Shown one piece after another: positions 31,802 through 49,088 of a DNA stretch of 64,000 nucleotides. Source of the stretch: Bradyrhizobium sp. AZCC 1610 (GTDB taxonomy: Bacteria > Pseudomonadota > Alphaproteobacteria > Rhizobiales > Xanthobacteraceae); the NCBI RefSeq assembly GCF_036924515.1, contig NZ_JAZHRR010000001.1:4621001-4685000 (forward strand). Direction: 5' to 3'. Made by a program: the position numbers and the translations under genes. Position 1 is the stretch's first letter, and each line of letters opens with the position of its first letter. The notes below the pieces were generated by a model. That model saw only the letters and a program-made list of their open reading frames with translations, did not search any database and had not been told where the DNA came from.

Positions 31802-32356
31802 TCACGAGGACTTGTTGCCATCCCCGGCAATAAACCGGCCGAAGCCGCCGCGCGCAAACAGCAGCGGTTCCTGCCGATTATAGGCGTAGGCTTCGACGGC
31901 GCCGAGGAAGATGATGTGGTCGCCGCCGTAATATCGATTTGCCGCGCGGCACTGGAAATTGGCGACGCTGTCGGTCAACACCGGCGCGTTGCCAAGACCC
32001 GGCGTCCAGTTCACGCCAGCGAACTTGTCGTCCGATGATTTTGCAAACCGAGACGCCAGTGCTTCTTGGGAAGCTCCGAGAACATTGACCGCGAAATGGC
32101 TGGCATTCTGGAAGATCGTGAGTCCTTGAGAAAACATCCCCAGACTCCACAATACCAGCGGCGGATTGAGCGACACTGAGGCAAAGGAGTTGCAGGTCAC
32201 GCCATACGGCCTTCCATCCGCCGCCATCGCCGTGACGATGGTGACGCCCGTGGCGAAAGTGCCAAGTGCATTGCGAAAGTCCCGGGGATCGATCGCCGAA
32301 TTGTCGCTGGCAAATTCGTTGGCCGGATCGGCCGGATGTTTGGGTGCGTCGGACAT
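31802..32356 (-). CDS. Flavin reductase (HpaC/DIM6-like)
   Basis: This 184-residue NAD(P)H:flavin oxidoreductase supplies reduced flavin to a partner monooxygenase. The family motif FRNALGTFATGVTIVTA is near 27-43, GVTCNSFASVSLNPPLVLW near 52-70 and the GDHIIFLGAV segment near 145-154. It starts 10 bp after the acyl-CoA-dehydrogenase-like oxygenase gene on the same strand and is very probably its reductase component. Confidence 0.93.
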   Translation of the reverse strand: MSDAPKHPADPANEFASDNSAIDPRDFRNALGTFATGVTIVTAMAADGRPYGVTCNSFASVSLNPPLVLWSLGMFSQGLTIFQNASHFAVNVLGASQEALASRFAKSSDDKFAGVNWTPGLGNAPVLTDSVANFQCRAANRYYGGDHIIFLGAVEAYAYNRQEPLLFARGGFGRFIAGDGNKSS

Positions 32357-32366
32357 CCGCCAGGCC

Positions 32367-33593
32367 TCAGAGCGTCAGATTTTCGGACGGCAGGCCAAGC
32401 GCCACGCGTCCATAATTGGTTCCTGCCGCATCGAAATTGAATGCGAGGTGCGAATTCACCGCGTGGGCGTCGCGGAATTGCCGCTGCAGTGCGCCTGACG
32501 TGAACAGGCTGCGCGCACCGCTTGCCGCGAACAACAACGAGACCGCTTCGGTGCAGAGGTTCACCGCGAACGCACCATCCCGCCGCAATCTCGTCTTGGC
32601 CGCAAGGTCGGGAACGTGGCCCCGCCTTGCGTCAGCCATCGCGTCGGCGCAGTTCGTGCGCATGACGAGGCGGGCCGCGTCGATCTTGGCGGAGGCTTCT
32701 GCGATCTTGATTTGGGTCGTCTGCAGGTCGCTTAGTTTGGCGCGATTGTAGGTCGAGGCGCGATGCCGCGCGAATTCGACGTAGTCATTCAGACAAGCCT
32801 GCGCATTACCCAAGCCAACGCCCGACAACACGTAAGGGAAGAGAGTGAATACCGGCAGCGCATACAGCGCGTTTGGGTTGACTATGCTTCCCGGCGTCGG
32901 TCCGCCGGTCAGCTCGCTCACCGCAACAGTCATTTTCTCCGCGACAAAGGCATCCTCAACCCATACGTCATTTGACCCGGTGCCGCACAGCCCCGTCGCA
33001 TTCCAGGTGTCGTTGATCTTGTAGTCGCTCCTGTTAAGCAGGAATATTCGATACTCGATGCCGTCAGCCTCATCTTCGGAAGATACCACGCCGGCAAGCA
33101 TGTTCCAGTCGCAAGACTCGACGCCCGAGGAGAACGGCCAGTGACCACGAAGGAAATATCCCCCATCCGCCTTTCTCGCGCGGCCGGCTGGAAATATGAA
33201 GGACGACGCGATCAACGCATCGGCATTCCTGTCCCAGACGGCGTCCTGCGCCTGCCGGTCAAACATGCCCAGCATCCAGTGATGACTGGCAAGATTGGCG
33301 AAGTTCCACGCCACGGACGCGTCCGCCTGCCCCAGCGCCTCGGCGCAATCGACCAGAGCGACATAGTCAAGCTCGGCACCTCCAACGCGTTTGGGTTGCA
33401 CGATTCGGAACAAACCTGCGTCATGCAAATCGCGCTCGGTCTCCGGAGGCAGGCGCCGAAGCTCCTCCGTCTTTGACGCACGATCGCGCAATTCTGGAAT
33501 CAGGGCCTTGGCACGCGCGACCATGGCGACATAGCTGTCCGCGTCCGGCCCCGCGGGCGAACCTGCATCCGGCTTTCCGCCGTCTCCAGCCAT
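32367..33593 (-). CDS. Acyl-CoA-dehydrogenase-fold flavin monooxygenase (oxygenase component)
   Basis: This 408-residue protein has the acyl-CoA dehydrogenase fold used by two-component hydroxylases such as HpaB-type 4-hydroxyphenylacetate monooxygenase and desulfurisation enzymes. Visible features are the N-terminal helical region, the beta domain with HWPFSSGVESCDWNML near 150-165, and TGSNDVWVEDAFV near 206-218. The catalytic acyl-CoA dehydrogenase Glu is not evident. Start 33593 follows GAGGAAAAT. With the reductase next to it, the pair should hydroxylate an aromatic or open a heterocycle; the substrate is unknown. Confidence 0.91.
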   Translation of the reverse strand: MAGDGGKPDAGSPAGPDADSYVAMVARAKALIPELRDRASKTEELRRLPPETERDLHDAGLFRIVQPKRVGGAELDYVALVDCAEALGQADASVAWNFANLASHHWMLGMFDRQAQDAVWDRNADALIASSFIFPAGRARKADGGYFLRGHWPFSSGVESCDWNMLAGVVSSEDEADGIEYRIFLLNRSDYKINDTWNATGLCGTGSNDVWVEDAFVAEKMTVAVSELTGGPTPGSIVNPNALYALPVFTLFPYVLSGVGLGNAQACLNDYVEFARHRASTYNRAKLSDLQTTQIKIAEASAKIDAARLVMRTNCADAMADARRGHVPDLAAKTRLRRDGAFAVNLCTEAVSLLFAASGARSLFTSGALQRQFRDAHAVNSHLAFNFDAAGTNYGRVALGLPSENLTL

Positions 33594-33827: not shown

Positions 33828-33980
33828 GGGCCGGAAAGCACCGTCGTCGGCCGGCTCGATCACCCCGTGGCGCATGTCTCTTGGGACGACGCCGTCGCTT
33901 ATTGCCACTGGTCGGGAACGCGGCTATCGACCGAAGGCGAATGGGAAATGGCGGCGCGCGGTGGGCTCGAGCAGGCGTGG
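33828..33980 (+). pseudogene. Formylglycine-generating-enzyme (FGE-sulfatase) domain fragment
   Basis: An in-frame stretch reads [20 protein letters not shown] and continues [20 protein letters not shown] and MAARGGLEQ. This is the conserved HVSWxDAxAYCxWxGxRLPTExEWExAARGG core of FGE/SUMF1-type proteins. Only about 50 codons remain. The frame then runs into sequence that reads on the other strand as a sugar-phosphate isomerase start, so the fragment is truncated at a rearrangement junction near 33975. Confidence 0.75.
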
Positions 33981-34133
33981 ATCGGAGGTCGGGACCTGAA
34001 CGCCCTTGTAACCGAGTCCAGCCGCCCAGCCGCAGATGGCATCGAAGCTGTCAAACGGCTGCGCATCGCCAATGAAATGCGCCAGAAAAATTGCGGGCTC
34101 CTTCATGGTGGCCGGTGGGATGGTCGCTGACAT
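33975..34133 (-). pseudogene. Sugar phosphate isomerase/epimerase, N-terminal fragment
   Basis: The minus strand from ATG 34133 reads [20 protein letters not shown] and on through [20 protein letters not shown] to [10 protein letters not shown]. This matches the start of TIM-barrel sugar phosphate isomerases (AIFLAQF...W A..LGYKGVQ). After about 50 codons the similarity stops where the FGE fragment of the opposite strand begins. Upstream on the minus strand (about 34255-34150) another open stretch ends IERPASLSDKEAASYWRS before a stop; I do not recognise it. Confidence 0.7.
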
Positions 34134-34295
34134 TACATTTTCTCCGGTTCAGGCCGCTGCGCTACGCCAGTAGGACGCCGCCTCCTTGTCCGACAAGGAT
34201 GCCGGCCGTTCAATACGCGAGACGATCTTGATCGTCCCCCATCGGTGCCGGCCTGCTGACCCAGCCCAAATTTCAACCTGGGCGGACTCGACTTT

Positions 34296-34310
34296 GTTCT
34301 CGTTATGTTC
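34296..34310 (+). promoter_or_regulatory. LexA box (alphaproteobacterial SOS box)
   Basis: GTTC (34296-34299), seven bases, GTTC (34307-34310) is an exact match to the GTTC-N7-GTTC direct repeat recognised by alphaproteobacterial LexA. It ends 11 bp before the ATG of the first gene of a series that leads to a UvrD-type helicase. Its position would let LexA block transcription of the whole group until DNA damage. Confidence 0.72.
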
Positions 34311-34321
34311 TAGTCAAGAAA

Positions 34322-34717
34322 ATGGCCGACCGACCCGCGAGCTGGCGCATGCCGACCCCGAAACAGATGGAAAAGCTGGCCGCGGAAGCGGTCCGGAAAT
34401 TAACGAATCCCGCTCCGGCTCCGGACGCGGCGCTCCCCGCCGAATACTGGGAATCGGTGCTCAAGGATCCTCGCGCCGGCACGAATGGGCTTCGACTATC
34501 GCAACGAAGGCTTTCGGATATCCACCGCCGCCTTCTGCGCGTCTCCTGCCGCCGCTGCGAGCGTACCGTGGAAATCCAGACCGCAGATGCGGTCCGCCTC
34601 TATGGCCGTAACGCGATCTGGAAAGACGTCGGGCAGTGGCTCCTGGACGATACCTGCCGGCAAAGGACCGGTAGCCATAAGGACGATGGGTGCTGGCCGG
34701 GGTTCGATATGACCTAG
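34322..34717 (+). CDS. Small CxxC protein, first gene of the SOS-type operon
   Basis: This 131-residue protein is not assigned to a family. It has a basic helical N-terminus (about 1-75), then VSCRRC (Cys77 and Cys80 approximately) and EIQTADAVRLYGRNAIWKDV, with two further Cys near 112 and 124. This could form a zinc-binding knuckle. It is 11 bp downstream of a LexA box, so it should be damage-inducible. The Shine-Dalgarno is weak (CAAGAA); an internal ATG at 34349 is an alternative start. The next gene starts 38 bp later. Confidence 0.65.
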   Translation: MADRPASWRMPTPKQMEKLAAEAVRKLTNPAPAPDAALPAEYWESVLKDPRAGTNGLRLSQRRLSDIHRRLLRVSCRRCERTVEIQTADAVRLYGRNAIWKDVGQWLLDDTCRQRTGSHKDDGCWPGFDMT

Positions 34718-34755
34718 CCTGCACACCGATTTGGTCTGCGTTTGGATTTGTCCGG

Positions 34756-35205
34756 ATGGCGCCGAAACACCACCCCACGCCCCTTTCGAGCGGCGATCGA
34801 AAGGGGCTGATGAAGGAGCTCGGCAAGGCACGCGCGATGACCGGCATTTTGGCTACGCAGTCAGCGGAGATGCGTGCCAAGGGCGCTGCGCTGATCCAGC
34901 AGGCCGATAAGCTTCTCTGCGAAAGCTGGAACGAGCGGATGTGGAGCGATGACGAGCCGGGCGACCCGTCGCCCACCATTGACCAGGCCGTCAACGGCGG
35001 CTTCCCAAGGTTGGAGATCCAGTGCGCCAGATGCATGACTCCGAATGACGTCGATCTCGCGGCGCTTAAGCATCCGCCGACGACATTCGTGCACGATCTT
35101 GCGAGCCGGCTGCGGTGCCGGAAGTGCGCCGAGACCGGGCGGCGTCCGCCGGCGACGTTGCTCCAGCTTGCTTGGCAGTCGCGCCACCCCCGAGCGGAGG
35201 TCTAG
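34756..35205 (+). CDS. Small zinc-ribbon-like protein in the UvrD operon
   Basis: This 149-residue protein has a helical N-terminal half (about 12-55) and a clear CxxC-x28-CxxC pattern (CARC near 91-94, CRKC near 123-126), as in zinc ribbons. I do not know a named family. The start at 34756 (MAPKHHPTPL) avoids overlap with the preceding gene; the frame is open upstream to 34690. It ends just before the helicase start, so the three genes are probably one transcript under the LexA box. Confidence 0.65.
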   Translation: MAPKHHPTPLSSGDRKGLMKELGKARAMTGILATQSAEMRAKGAALIQQADKLLCESWNERMWSDDEPGDPSPTIDQAVNGGFPRLEIQCARCMTPNDVDLAALKHPPTTFVHDLASRLRCRKCAETGRRPPATLLQLAWQSRHPRAEV

Positions 35206-35209
35206 AAGG

Positions 35210-37333
35210 TTGCGGTCACAGCAGGAATCATCGACCGTCGCTTATTCCGACCATGAACGGACGCCCAAGGTGCAGACGGCAACCGCCTACCTCGAAACTC
35301 TCAATCCGGAGCAGCGGCGTGCCGTCGAGTACGGCGCTGCGGGAGGATTGGCGGCGCCGCCGCTGCTGGTCATCGCAGGAGCAGGGTCCGGAAAGACCAA
35401 CACCCTCGCCCATCGGGTCGCCCATCTGATCGTCCAGGGTGCCGACCCCCGCCGGATCCTGTTGATGACGTTTTCACGTCGCGCCGCGTCCGAGATGACC
35501 AAGCGGGTCGAACGCATCGCGCGCAACTTGATGGGCAACAACGCCGGGGTCATGACGGACGCGCTGACTTGGGCCGGCACCTACCACGGCATCGGCGCCC
35601 GGCTGCTGCGCGAATACGCCGAACAGATCGGCCTGGACCCCGCCTTCACGATCCACGACCGCGAAGACTCCGCGGACCTCATGAACTTGGTCAGGCATGA
35701 GAAGGGCTTCTCGAAGACCGAAAGCCGCTTCCCGACCAAAGGGACGTGTCTCTCGATCTACTCGCGCTGCGTCAATGCCGAGATGCCGATCGAGCAGGTA
35801 ATCGGCACGTCGTATCCATGGTGCTCCGGGTGGGCGACGGAGCTCAAGGAACTGTTCGCGGCCTATGTCGAGGCCAAGCAGAAGCAGAACGTACTCGACT
35901 ACGACGACCTCCTGCTCTATTGGGCGCAGATGGTCGGCGACGCCGGCCTGGCCGACGACATCGGCGGCCGCTTCGATCACGTTCTCGTCGACGAGTATCA
36001 GGACACGAACCGCCTGCAGTCCTCGATCCTGCTGGCGCTCAAGCCCGGAGGCCGTGGTCTGACGGTCGTCGGCGATGACGCTCAATCGATCTACTCGTTC
36101 CGCGCCGCGACCGTACGTAACATCCTCGACTTTCCCGACCAATTCTCGCCGCCCGCGAACATTATCACGCTCGATCGCAATTATCGCTCGACGCAAACGA
36201 TCCTCGCCGCGGCCAACGGCGTAATCGGTCTCGCCAAGGAACGCTTCACCAAGAACCTCTGGACCGAACGCACCTCCGCCGCGAAGCCCCAACTCGTCTC
36301 GGTCCGCGACGAGGCCGACCAGGCCCGCTTCATCGTCGAACGCATCCTGGAGAACCGCGAGTCCGGCACGCTCCTCAAAGAGCAGGCCGTCCTGTTCCGG
36401 ACGTCCAGCCACAGCGGTCCGCTTGAAATCGAACTGACGCGTCGGAACATCCCGTTCGTGAAGTTTGGCGGACTGAAGTTTCTCGATGCCGCGCATATCA
36501 AGGACCTGCTGGCATTGCTGCGGTTCGTCGAAAACCCGCGCGATCGTGTCGCGGGGTTCCGTCTGCTGCATCTGCTGCCTGGCATCGGCTCCGCAACCGC
36601 GCAGCGCGTGCTCGATCACATGGCGGAGGCTGCCGACCCCATCACAGCGCTCGCGGGCTTACCGACGCCACCGCGCGCTGGCGACGACTGGAAGGGCTTC
36701 GTCGAGACCTTGGGCAATCTCCGATATTCGGAATGGCCCGTCGACCTGGAGCGTGCCCGCCTCTGGTACGAACCACATCTCGAGCGCATCCACGAAGATG
36801 CTGACACGCGGCGGGCTGACTTGATCCAGCTCGAGCAGATCGCCTCCGGATATCCTTCGCGCGAGCGTTTCCTGACCGAGCTCACCCTGGATCCGCCCGA
36901 CGCGACCAGCGACCAGGCCGGCGTGCCGCTGCTCGACGAGGACTACCTCATCCTGTCCACGATCCACTCCGCCAAGGGCCAGGAGTGGAAGTCGGTCTAT
37001 CTGCTCAACGTCGTCGACGGCTGCATGCCCTCCGACCTTGGAGCCGGCACCTCGGCCGAGATCGAGGAGGAACGCCGCCTGCTCTATGTGGCTATGACCC
37101 GCGCAAAGGATGACCTCCATCTGGTCGTGCCGCAGCGCTTCTTCGTCCACGGCCAGCACGCACAGGGAGATCGTCACCTCTATGCCTCCAGGACGCGCTT
37201 CATTCCCGAAAAACTGCTGGGTCTGTTCGAGCGGACGGCTTGGCCAGTCGTGCCGGCCGGCGCCACGGCACGCACCGCCGGCCAGGGACCAAGGCTCGAT
37301 ATTGGATCCCGCATGCGCGGCATGTGGCGATAG
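35210..37333 (+). CDS. UvrD/Rep-type superfamily I DNA helicase
   Basis: This 707-residue helicase has Walker A GAGSGKTNT (57-65), motif II VDEYQDTN near 260, motif III VGDDAQSIYSFR near 288, motif IV region LDRNYRSTQ near 325, motif V TIHSAKGQEW near 585 and motif VI YVAMTRAKDDL near 630. TTG at 35210 is chosen because GGAGG lies 9 nt upstream; GTG at 35270 is an alternative, and starts before 35205 would overlap the preceding gene. Such 3'-5' helicases unwind DNA in repair. It is likely SOS-controlled through the LexA box at 34296. Confidence 0.92.
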   Translation: MRSQQESSTVAYSDHERTPKVQTATAYLETLNPEQRRAVEYGAAGGLAAPPLLVIAGAGSGKTNTLAHRVAHLIVQGADPRRILLMTFSRRAASEMTKRVERIARNLMGNNAGVMTDALTWAGTYHGIGARLLREYAEQIGLDPAFTIHDREDSADLMNLVRHEKGFSKTESRFPTKGTCLSIYSRCVNAEMPIEQVIGTSYPWCSGWATELKELFAAYVEAKQKQNVLDYDDLLLYWAQMVGDAGLADDIGGRFDHVLVDEYQDTNRLQSSILLALKPGGRGLTVVGDDAQSIYSFRAATVRNILDFPDQFSPPANIITLDRNYRSTQTILAAANGVIGLAKERFTKNLWTERTSAAKPQLVSVRDEADQARFIVERILENRESGTLLKEQAVLFRTSSHSGPLEIELTRRNIPFVKFGGLKFLDAAHIKDLLALLRFVENPRDRVAGFRLLHLLPGIGSATAQRVLDHMAEAADPITALAGLPTPPRAGDDWKGFVETLGNLRYSEWPVDLERARLWYEPHLERIHEDADTRRADLIQLEQIASGYPSRERFLTELTLDPPDATSDQAGVPLLDEDYLILSTIHSAKGQEWKSVYLLNVVDGCMPSDLGAGTSAEIEEERRLLYVAMTRAKDDLHLVVPQRFFVHGQHAQGDRHLYASRTRFIPEKLLGLFERTAWPVVPAGATARTAGQGPRLDIGSRMRGMWR

Positions 37334-37356
37334 ACGGGGGATGCTAAGGAACCACC

Positions 37357-37419
37357 GTGTGCAATCTCTATTCGATCACCACCAACCAGGCCGCCATCAT
37401 CGCGCTGTTTCGCGTCGTG
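37357..37419 (+). pseudogene. SRAP/HMCES-type gene, N-terminal fragment on the plus strand
   Basis: Starting with GTG at 37357, the sequence reads (M)CNLYSITTNQAAIIALFRVV, the start of SOS-response-associated peptidases (SRAP, YedK/HMCES), including the catalytic Cys2 that crosslinks to abasic sites. After about 21 codons similarity ends. It begins 23 bp after the helicase stop, so the intact gene was probably part of the same SOS operon. The rest of the gene is found nearby on the opposite strand. Confidence 0.75.
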
Positions 37420-37424
37420 AGGGG

Positions 37425-37797
37425 ACTGGTCTCCACTTCGGCCGGCGTTGTCAGGATTACTGGCATTGCGTTCGGATGGATGGCGCCGACCTCCGAGTTC
37501 GGCTCAGTCGTGAGGAACGCGAATAGGTCGTTGATAGTCTCACCTTTCGCACGGACGTCCAGTTTGTCCAGATGCCGGCGAAGCAGGGTAGGCTCTCGTC
37601 AAGGGCGAATCAGATATCGCCTCCCTCGGCTTTGTTGAATTCGCTGAATGACGTGAACGGCACCACGCAGCGGCTATTGGTTCCGAGCCATCTCGTCCAA
37701 TGCTTGCTCTTTACAGTGCGGATACTGTCGTTCCGCCGTCAGGCTCCATTCGGAGCAGTTCCTTGAAGTCGACCGGCTTGCCCTTGGCTTGAAGCTT
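37425..37797 (-). pseudogene. SRAP/HMCES-type gene, inverted middle and C-terminal part with frameshifts
   Basis: Reading the minus strand from about 37797 gives KLQAKGKPVDFKELLRMEPD, then, after a lost base, SIRTVKSKHWTRWLG. It continues SRCVVPFTSFSEFNKAEGGD and I, an in-frame TGA where Trp is expected, and FALDESLPCFAGIWTNWTSV. A further frame change leads to GETINDLFAFLTTEPN and AIHPNAMPVILTTPAEVET. This is the SRAP domain of the same subtype as the plus-strand fragment. One stop and at least two frameshifts make it dead. Confidence 0.78.
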
Positions 37798-38155
37798 CGC
37801 TGAGCTCGAGAAGCCCCCATGGTTCGCAACGGCTCCGTTTAGAGCAAACCTGTCCCCTCATGATCCTTGAATGACTCAGCATCAACAGGAGGCCGTCATC
37901 GCCAGGCCACCAGGAACGATGGCCTGCGCCACTGGCAGGGAGTAACAATGCCGCAGCGGCGGGAGCACCCTTGGACCTCAACGGCCGAGATTGTCGACGG
38001 TTCGGCTTACCATCTCCGCCCATCAGGAATAAGATGAGCCGACGTCCACGGGCGTTCGTGCCCTTAGGCGGGCCCGGCTAGATATCGTGGCAACTCTCCG
38101 TCACGCCCGTTGGCCACACACTGAGGTCTGCGCAGCGATCCACACGACGAATTCC
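37798..38155. other. Stretch without a recognisable gene
   Basis: Between the SRAP relic and the AmrS gene I find only short open frames. Two consecutive plus-strand frames (24 codons from about 37871 and 29 codons from about 37948) match nothing that I know. An in-frame GTG at 38087 could extend the AmrS gene into this stretch. The composition is similar to the neighbours. Confidence 0.5.
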
Positions 38156-39256
38156 ATGACTGAACCCGAGCATTTGGAAGGCGTTCCTGGCCGCTACTGG
38201 CACCGGCTCGAAGACGGGCGTGTCCAGTGCGATGTCTGCCCGCGCTATTGCAGGCTTAACGAAGGCCAGCGCGGCCTGTGCTTTGTGCGTGGCCGGCAAG
38301 ATGATCGGATCGTGCTCACGACCTACGGCCGCTCCTCGGGGTTCTGTGTCGATCCAATAGAGAAGAAGCCACTGAACCACTATCTGCCCGGAACTCCCGT
38401 GTTGTCGTTCGGCACCGCCGGGTGCAACCTGACCTGCAAATTCTGCCAGAACTGGGACATCTCCAAAGCGCGCGAACTCGACCGGCTCCAGGACGCAGCC
38501 TCGCCGGAAGATATTGTCGAGGCCGCGATTGCCACGGGCTCGCGCTCCATCGCCTACACCTACAATGACCCCGTCATCTTCCTGGAATATGCCGTGGATG
38601 TTGCAAAGGTGGCGCGCCGGCGCGGGATCAAGAACGTGGCGGTCACAGCGGGCTACGTTGACGCGGCGGCGCGGGAGGAGTTTTACACCTTCATGGACGC
38701 CGCCAATGTCGACCTCAAGGCGTTCACCGAGGCGTTCTATAAGCGGATGTGCACGGGGCGTCTTGGCGCCGTGCTCGAGACGCTCGAGTATCTGAAGAAC
38801 AAGACGAAGGTCTGGTTCGAAATCACAACGCTGCTGATCCCGGGTCACAATGACAGCTCAGAGGAGGTAAAAAAGCTTAGCGAGTGGGTGATGACAAGAC
38901 TAGGACCTGACGTGCCCTTGCATTTCACCGCCTTCCACCCTGACTACAAGATGCTGGATCTGCCCCGTACGCCGGCCTTCACGCTGACGACGGCTCGCGA
39001 TATCGCGCGCAAGGTCGGGCTGCATTTCGTCTACACCGGCAATGTCCATGACGAGAGGGGCCAAAGCACGTACTGCCCGGGCTGCAGTGAGCGGATCATC
39101 GGCCGAGATTGGTATGACATCACCACTTGGCGGCTCACAGGGGACGGCCGCTGCGGTATTTGCTCCACGGCAATCCCCGGCTTGTTCGAGGCGCACCCGG
39201 GCAACTGGGGGCAGCGGCGCGTCCCGATCCGGATCGGCAGACTGGAACGGTCGTGA
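38156..39256 (+). CDS. amrS: AmmeMemoRadiSam-type radical SAM enzyme AmrS
   Basis: This 366-residue radical SAM protein has the CxxxCxxC cluster CNLTCKFC (Cys90, 94, 97) and a preceding Cys pair region (CDVCPRYC near 25-32). The YNDPVIFLEY and GNVHDERGQSTYCPGC segments, the latter with a C-terminal Cys motif, are typical of AmrS. AmrS is usually encoded with AMMECR1 and Memo proteins, which are not visible here. ATG at 38156 is chosen over GTG at 38087. The next gene, 62 bp downstream, is an Mth938-domain protein. Confidence 0.9.
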   Translation: MTEPEHLEGVPGRYWHRLEDGRVQCDVCPRYCRLNEGQRGLCFVRGRQDDRIVLTTYGRSSGFCVDPIEKKPLNHYLPGTPVLSFGTAGCNLTCKFCQNWDISKARELDRLQDAASPEDIVEAAIATGSRSIAYTYNDPVIFLEYAVDVAKVARRRGIKNVAVTAGYVDAAAREEFYTFMDAANVDLKAFTEAFYKRMCTGRLGAVLETLEYLKNKTKVWFEITTLLIPGHNDSSEEVKKLSEWVMTRLGPDVPLHFTAFHPDYKMLDLPRTPAFTLTTARDIARKVGLHFVYTGNVHDERGQSTYCPGCSERIIGRDWYDITTWRLTGDGRCGICSTAIPGLFEAHPGNWGQRRVPIRIGRLERS

Positions 39257-48902: not shown

Positions 48903-49088
48903 CCGAACAAATCGCTGCGCAAGCGGTTGACGCCGCTGATCCGCAGGACTCAGCCCTTCACCAAAAGGATCGCGCACAAGGGCATCTGGGTCGAGCCGGA
49001 ATTGCTTGCCGAAATCGAGTACCGAGCCAAATCGGGTGAGGGCAAGGTGCGCCATCCCTTCTTCAGAGGCCCACGGGAGGACCTTTGA
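48903..49088 (+). pseudogene. DNA ligase D, C-terminal fragment
   Basis: A 62-codon frame contains LRKRLTPLIRRTQPFTKRIA and continues KGIWVEPELLAEIEYRAKSG and EGKVRHPFFRGPREDL to a stop. This is the extreme C-terminus of the ATP-dependent ligase domain of LigD (VWVEPxLLAEIEYRAKSxEGxxRHPxFKGLREDL). Nothing of the remaining 500-800 residues is present. It is a relic of a non-homologous-end-joining gene. Confidence 0.75.

Follow-up and report, generated by a model that had tools for sequence, protein, structure and literature searches.

Genomic neighbourhoods in which DUF159 (SRAP) and Ku genes occur together were described by Aravind, Anand and Iyer (2013; PMC3765255), and the part of that text available to us states that they also encode two uncharacterised Zn-chelating, predicted Zn-ribbon-like proteins. 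The SRAP protein YedK is reported to act on abasic sites (PMC9436759, available portion) and bacterial Ku to have apurinic/apyrimidinic (AP)-lyase activity (PMC4245934, available portion), and in Caulobacter a LexA box, GTTCttgttatGTTC, of the form GTTC-N7-GTTC, is given for two SOS genes (PMC12700426, available portion). We compared with these systems a locus of Bradyrhizobium sp. AZCC 1610 which lies in a stretch of 64,000 nucleotides (hereafter the window; bases 4,621,001-4,685,000 of a 7.75 Mb single-contig genome, labelled G000) and consists of a GTTC-N7-GTTC box, two open reading frames (ORF1 and ORF2) for small CxxC proteins, a gene for a UvrD-type helicase and a wrecked SRAP gene. A reading made from the letters of this stretch alone, called here the sequence-only reading, had stated that no system of this composition was described. 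This was wrong, because PMC3765255, in the part available, already reports neighbourhoods of SRAP/DUF159, Ku and two Zn-ribbon-like proteins. The operon has been known in outline since 2013; it is real, well conserved and SOS-type, and the window carries a degenerate, helicase-bearing variant of it. What is new is the LexA box at nearly every copy of the cassette and the capture of a helicase which is otherwise kept elsewhere in the genus. Taken as a whole, we regard it as likely, on comparative sequence evidence, that what the window holds is a DNA-repair operon repressed by LexA, in a worn copy that bears a helicase. The promoter elements and the three intact genes are as follows.

34287..34292, forward strand: -35-like element CTCGAC (read from the sequence; promoter role predicted)
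34296..34310, forward strand: LexA box GTTC-N7-GTTC, GTTCTCGTTATGTTC (read from the sequence; conserved before ORF1 orthologues)
34309..34314, forward strand: -10-like element TCTAGT, mostly TCTAAT in relatives (read from the sequence; function predicted)
34322..34717, forward strand: ORF1, 131 amino acids, putative zinc-binding protein with CxxC...C...C (ORF reading, alignment)
34756..35205, forward strand: ORF2, 149 amino acids, a long helix and a zinc-ribbon-like part with CxxC...CxxC (ORF reading, alignment, structure model)
35210..37333, forward strand: UvrD/PcrA/Rep-like superfamily 1 (SF1) helicase, 707 amino acids, TTG start, GTG 35270 being possible (Pfam, NCBIfam, structure comparison)

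The box GTTCTCGTTATGTTC ends exactly 11 bp upstream of the ATG of ORF1 at 34322, just where the sequence-only reading had placed it. Its conservation was followed in three sets of loci: a genus set made of the best 93 of the 150 ORF1 matches listed (E <= 2.3e-55) from 117 genus genomes, 20 loci from other genera of the same family, and 20 loci with a definable start out of the 57 weaker or broken ORF1 matches, which were kept out of the genus set. The genus set includes L087 and L134, which match over 8,390 bp, and the other-genus locus L192 is identical to both over this length; since L192 duplicates genus loci already counted, only 19 of the 20 other-genus loci are new. An exact GTTC-N7-GTTC ending 6-13 bp upstream of ORF1 was present in 92 of the 93 genus loci (89 of 90 after removal of near-identical copies), in 20/20 other-genus loci and in 15/20 of the weaker or broken copies, the five without it all being partial matches. 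As a control, 50-bp windows were taken elsewhere in these loci, the three closest to the start of ORF1 being set aside, and 7 of 14,226 contained the box. Inner bases of the box were conserved as well (T at position 9 in 92/92, A at position 10 in 86/92), the most frequent form, GTTCTTGTTATGTTC, made up 32 of the 92 genus boxes, and each of the 65 intergenic regions between a full Ku gene and ORF1 contained exactly one box. Elsewhere in the window's own genome, GTTCTCATTATGTTC lies 54 bp upstream of a DinB-type polymerase gene and a GTTC-N7-GTTC lies about 125 bp upstream of a lexA domain match. The count of the bare motif was rejected as evidence, there being no clear excess in the window (3 matches against 1.69 expected, a number reached by 21 of 100 shuffles); genome-wide it was 228 against 184 for a reversed-pattern control. 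The box is credible because of its position upstream of orthologues, set against the control windows, and not because of motif frequency. A box near the gene start that is conserved in orthologues is what marks, by sequence, membership of an alphaproteobacterial-type LexA (SOS) regulon; this is what we found, and it supports the LexA-type control which the sequence-only reading had made to depend on a GTTC repeat upstream of orthologues.

The letters around the box resemble a promoter. CTCGAC and TCTA are 16 bp apart in the window, and CTCGAC followed by TCTA at 16-19 bp was seen in 75 of the 92 boxed promoters, with a spacing of 17 bp in 59; TAAT stands immediately 3' of the box in 66 of the 92 boxed loci. 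The box occupies the gap between the -35-like and -10-like hexamers and overlaps the latter, which lies 7 bp before the ORF1 ATG in the window. Bound LexA would block the polymerase directly, and the transcript may be leaderless, starting near the ORF1 ATG. From position, conservation and promoter anatomy, we consider it almost certain that ORF1 and ORF2 would form an operon under LexA control. Other boxes were noted as well. At position 7108 of L082 (G000 C1:3,119,108) a second box identical to that of the window has no reading frame of more than 90 amino acids starting close downstream. At L119, L120, L122, L124, L125 and L128, upstream of a helicase that is not in a cassette, the box GTTCTATTTTTGTTC stands 9 bp before a small divergent ORF of 84-111 amino acids which begins MDN-x-x-NEIRR and is possibly a further SOS gene.

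Both small ORFs are real genes under constraint, and the named close relatives of the window's proteins are mostly from Bradyrhizobium. Pairwise ratios of nonsynonymous to synonymous substitution (dN/dS) against relatives were 0.14-0.25 for ORF1 (9 comparisons) and 0.08-0.11 for ORF2 (8 comparisons), and four cysteines are invariant in each protein: C76, C79, C112 and C124 of ORF1 in a 30-row alignment, and C90, C93, C121 and C124 of ORF2 in a 26-row alignment. ORF2 starts at ATG 34756 and the helicase at TTG 35210, which is preceded by GGAGGT at 8 nt; the longest-ORF versions (171 and 762 amino acids, respectively) are over-long, because homologues align from these two positions. Neither small protein had a match in Pfam, NCBIfam, PADLOC or PHROGs, and in the PADLOC (defence) and PHROGs (phage) scans of ORF1, ORF2 and the helicase, matches were obtained for the helicase only. 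Phage Mu Com, the name given by a source to some ORF2 relatives, was rejected, ORF2 being without a PHROGs or Pfam match. When the two proteins were compared with each other as possible paralogues, the profile comparison gave a probability of 1.3% with shallow profiles (Neff 1.6 and 1.5). From the cysteines and the structure models we guess that ORF1 and ORF2 bind zinc, and the likeliest role for them, one to which we would give somewhat less than an even chance, is that of adaptors which attach to DNA or to partners at sites of damage.

As to the neighbourhood, ORF2 follows ORF1 in 86 of the 93 genus loci, and SRAP comes directly after ORF2 in 53 and further downstream in 16, with DinB following in 20. 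Divergent Ku is full in 65 loci, partial in 9 and absent from 19, and when Ku (150 matches listed) and ORF1 were searched separately, all 63 adjacent pairs were divergent, with 150-249 bp between the matches. Genes for ligase, phosphoesterase and NUDIX proteins lie near several loci; the labels of the neighbouring genes (Ku, SRAP, ATP-dependent ligase, metallophosphatase, NUDIX, HAD, DinB and IS110) were checked with Pfam on representatives. In the 20 other-genus loci ORF1-ORF2 is mostly followed by SRAP and sometimes by DinB, the helicase is found in none, and divergent Ku in L192 only. The sequence-only reading, in which divergent Ku, DinB and the ATP-dependent ligase neighbours were absent, had proposed to search genomes for the pair beside UvrD and SRAP; SRAP indeed turned out to be a regular companion, while UvrD was confined to 10 of the 93 genus cassettes, nine times right behind ORF2 and once behind SRAP. 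What stays constant is the box followed by ORF1 and ORF2; SRAP is usually joined to it, as is a divergent Ku in Bradyrhizobium. By this comparison SRAP belongs to the ancestral cassette, whose setting is probably that of SRAP and abasic sites or of end joining.

It could be argued that the zinc pair are end-joining factors proper, that is, SOS-induced partners of the divergent Ku and of the nearby ATP-dependent ligase. The 65 full divergent Ku genes, the uniform orientation of the 63 adjacent pairs and the ligase, phosphoesterase and NUDIX genes near several loci agree with this, and the AP-lyase activity of bacterial Ku (PMC4245934, in its available part) would connect Ku with SRAP. However, Ku was found in 117/117 genus genomes and ORF1, among the matches listed, in 80/117; furthermore, 87 of the 150 Ku matches listed have none of the 93 ORF1 copies next to them, and the operon stands without divergent Ku in 19 of the 20 other-genus loci. 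We therefore hold it unlikely that end joining as such explains the pair.

The window copy itself is a worn, helicase-bearing derivative of the Ku-SRAP cassette, having lost Ku and SRAP. Its remnants are the following.

37357..37443, forward strand: SRAP/HMCES-type remnant, residues 1-29 (tblastn with an intact relative, 72% identity)
37428..37803, reverse strand: SRAP remnant, residues 74-204, inverted, in three pieces and with a stop (tblastn, 74-88% identity; sub-threshold PF02586 match with a stop)
48912..49085, forward strand: C-terminal remnant of an ATP-dependent ligase, 58 amino acids (tblastn with the ligase found near related cassettes, 84% identity over its residues 283-340)

The order ORF1, ORF2, UvrD-type helicase and, 23 bp downstream of the helicase stop, the SRAP start (GTG 37357) agreed, by sequence and Pfam, with that given by the sequence-only reading. 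That reading had also called the SRAP gene wrecked; the start and the breakage stand, but the gene is not merely truncated, it is broken by inversion of residues 74-204. SRAP residues 30-73 and 205-241 gave no convincing tblastn match in the window. While intact relatives match PF02586, as YedK/HMCES-type (SRAP) proteins, the rearranged gene lacks an intact SRAP domain and cannot make a SRAP protein. On either side of the inverted piece stand the arms of an imperfect inverted repeat of 23 nt (37415-37437 / 37841-37863, 78%). A break driven by an insertion sequence (IS) was rejected, since the right border matches a duplicated chromosomal segment: the sequence from 37811 rightwards recurs once elsewhere in the genome at 96% identity, there standing in front of a second radical SAM gene copy, and the junction thus looks like the border of this segment. 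No Ku was found in the window by tblastn, and for this reason the window is a derivative and not a complete member of the 2013 neighbourhood; the ligase remnant is possibly a trace of a former end-joining neighbourhood. Another ORF1-ORF2 pair, accompanied by the box and by a full, divergent Ku gene, lies in the same genome at 6,617,698 (L061), and an intact SRAP domain is found elsewhere in it, at 5,131,450.

On either side of this copy further genes were read. A radical SAM enzyme of the AmmeMemoRadiSam system (TIGR04337, 627 bits) is encoded at 38087-39256 of the window and at 1661-2983 of L213, a very similar second copy lying near base 5,078,500 of the window's genome. To the left, an FGE-sulfatase/EgtB-type fragment (33867-34130, forward strand) stands where relatives have Ku, which is another sign of rearrangement. 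An adjoining flavin reductase and acyl-CoA-dehydrogenase-like oxygenase (31802-33593, reverse strand) resemble two-component monooxygenases such as HsaA/HsaB, below their cut-offs.

In the family as a whole, ORF1 was found in 43/248 genomes and 8/47 genera, and in 0/384 other genomes sampled across the class, a limited first look in which the first 10 candidates were scored per genome. Matches per genome vary from 0 to 7 and many are fragmentary. Copies are also present on 19 plasmid records, of which 7 are typed as conjugative; on two of three plasmid records read Ku is divergent beside ORF1, and on B. diazoefficiens pNK6c three integrase genes separate Ku from ORF1. IS110 or integrase genes are inserted in some loci. 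Over the 8,390 bp mentioned above, with the whole cassette and Ku, L192 (G757, another genus) is 100% identical to L134 and L087 (G086 and G016, of the same genus as the window), which points either to transfer in the very recent past or to one assembly in which sequence was mixed up. Such uneven copy numbers, plasmid records, insertions and identity across genera, together with the loss of SRAP and Ku in the window, would suit a mobile accessory set, cargo of plasmids or islands, in which the box provides element-borne stress control and nothing else, the copy in the window being a decaying and functionless remnant. We judge this improbable, as the dN/dS of the three intact window genes is low (0.05-0.09 for the helicase in 6 comparisons, besides the values for ORF1 and ORF2 given above), the box is strictly conserved, less strictly in the weaker or broken copies (15/20), ORF1 had no match in 50,697 phage records, and mobility is compatible with a repair function.

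The helicase has the N- and C-terminal domains of its family, UvrD-helicase (PF00580, 205 bits) and UvrD_C (PF13361, 162 bits). These domains it has in common with the UvrD/PcrA/Rep SF1A helicases; it stays below all three NCBIfam equivalog cut-offs (PcrA 373 of 911, UvrD 326 of 1144 and Rep 299 of 951 bits), and its nearest solved chains are PcrA and UvrD. GajB models match it through the shared domain, at best with 214 bits versus 373 for the PcrA model; as regards Gabija, there was no second ATPase among the eight window ORFs scanned, PADLOC having been run on ORF1, ORF2 and the helicase only. With close homologues defined by E <= 1e-200, 107 of 114 genus genomes have one (a single copy in 98, two in 8, three in 1), and for 9 of the 117 close homologues a listed ORF1 is found no more than 3 kb away, a count for which 118 of the 150 ORF1 matches listed were used. 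Cassette helicases behind ORF2 are 93-96% identical to that of the window and those outside cassettes mostly 76-85%, and around three copies at 92-96% identity the 1.5 kb read contains no ORF1. In a 33-row tree eight behind-ORF2 cassette helicases and those three copies form one clade (100/99 support), and a separate second clade has the helicase behind SRAP (5 rows, 4 different). Since there are two clades, at least two separate captures would fit, or perhaps one capture followed by later losses; the two clades hint at a useful combination, not at a fixed partnership. In the window's genome and in G126, both single-contig, the cassette helicase is the only match at E <= 1e-200, and if this copy is the sole one, the helicase of both genomes would be under SOS-type control.

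That the two zinc proteins make up a dedicated module in which they load or adapt the UvrD helicase, as the sequence-only reading had suggested, is very unlikely, for although gene order and constraint in the window and nine further cassettes agree with it, and the presence of the helicase in cassettes of two separate clades (behind ORF2 and behind SRAP) is a hint of functional fit, no UvrD adjoins ORF1 in 83 of the 93 genus loci and in all 20 other-genus loci, the kind of outcome which that reading had itself named as a refutation, and 108 of the 117 close helicase homologues are more than 3 kb away from any listed ORF1.

Two further arrangements that involve the helicase were observed. At L108, L110 and L112 a GTTC-N7-GTTC box is followed by a SRAP gene about 50% identical to the cassette type and then directly by an 83-84% identical helicase; there is no ORF1 or ORF2 within the 5 kb examined, an ATP-dependent ligase lies near L108 and dinB near L110, and this is probably a sister SOS module. 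In G019 (C1:2,736,000-2,755,000; L063 and L064) two tandem cassettes lie within 18 kb with a SRAP-helicase pair between them.

The reading that we prefer, a worn copy of a LexA-repressed repair operon, would work as follows. In the intact form LexA, seated on the box between -35 and -10, would block transcription of ORF1-ORF2-SRAP(-dinB), and DNA damage would lead to self-cleavage of LexA and turn the operon on. Abasic sites in single-stranded DNA would then be capped by the SRAP protein and broken ends held by Ku, which is encoded divergently, both roles being those expected from their families, while DinB would copy past lesions and ORF1 and ORF2 would bind zinc and be adaptors there, attaching to DNA or to partners. 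In the lineage of the window a UvrD/PcrA-like helicase, outside the cassette in most of the genus, would have been captured behind ORF2, a position that would make it SOS-inducible, and we guess that it would clear or expose single strands for ORF1/ORF2. Afterwards the window copy would have lost Ku and had its SRAP wrecked by inversion, so that what remains would be a predicted SOS-induced ORF1-ORF2-helicase unit.

Several observations weigh against this reading. One genus locus, L172 (1/93), and 5/20 of the weaker or broken copies have no exact box, and among three window-like boxes read in the window's own genome one precedes a known SOS-type gene and the other two have no reading frame of more than 90 amino acids starting close downstream. 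SRAP was not found in the forward direction in 24/93 genus loci, the window included and some stretches ending at contig borders, and since Ku is not divergent from ORF1 in 19/93 genus and 19/20 other-genus loci, the Ku link is mainly a feature of Bradyrhizobium. Pairwise dN/dS averages the whole divergence, and the window copy may have decayed recently, after the loss of Ku and SRAP. For zinc binding the basis is the conserved cysteines together with two structure models of middling quality (mean predicted local distance difference test, pLDDT, 72.5 and 68.5), which gave no significant fold match.

The repair-operon reading can be carried one step further, although we find it quite unlikely that the extended form holds: ORF1 and ORF2 would be SOS-induced zinc adaptors, so far in one alphaproteobacterial family only, which pass DNA that is broken or carries abasic sites on from SRAP, either to end joining by Ku and ligase or to a helicase, and the genus-wide UvrD-like helicase would have moved under LexA control here, replacing Ku and SRAP as partner. 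The comparative evidence places a little-noticed, repair-associated pair of zinc-type proteins in the SOS regulon of Bradyrhizobium and its relatives, with a promoter anatomy clear enough for testing, and at one divergent promoter it connects SOS control with abasic-site protection (SRAP) and end joining (Ku). The window adds a natural experiment, in which an SOS-type operon has taken in a helicase that usually lies outside the cassette and that is here the only close homologue found in the genome.

Compared with known systems, the family studied here resembles the neighbourhood of PMC3765255, whose available text gives SRAP, Ku and two Zn-ribbon-like proteins and links them with DinB and an ATP-dependent ligase. 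In the family SRAP was found beside two small Zn-ribbon-like genes, and a Ku gene lies nearby in most genus loci; the window, by comparison, has the pair intact, a broken SRAP and no Ku. The Zn-ribbon-like pair of 2013 is very probably ORF1/ORF2, an identity which we can only infer because the available text names no species or accession for the pair; its main text, as available, has 0 occurrences of Bradyrhizobium, Rhodopseudomonas or rhizobi-, mentions no LexA box before the pair and does not contain 'UvrD', and a RecD-related SF1 helicase is placed there in other SRAP operons. LexA control of this operon appeared in no title or abstract found in open-licence literature, and PMC7719229, on bacterial end joining, has no mention of Bradyrhizobium, SOS or LexA. 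In PMC12700426 the available main text has neither 'SRAP' nor 'uvrD', and LexA binding in Bradyrhizobium is a prediction from sequence; the Caulobacter LexA box that it gives is, letter for letter, the commonest form of the box found before ORF1.

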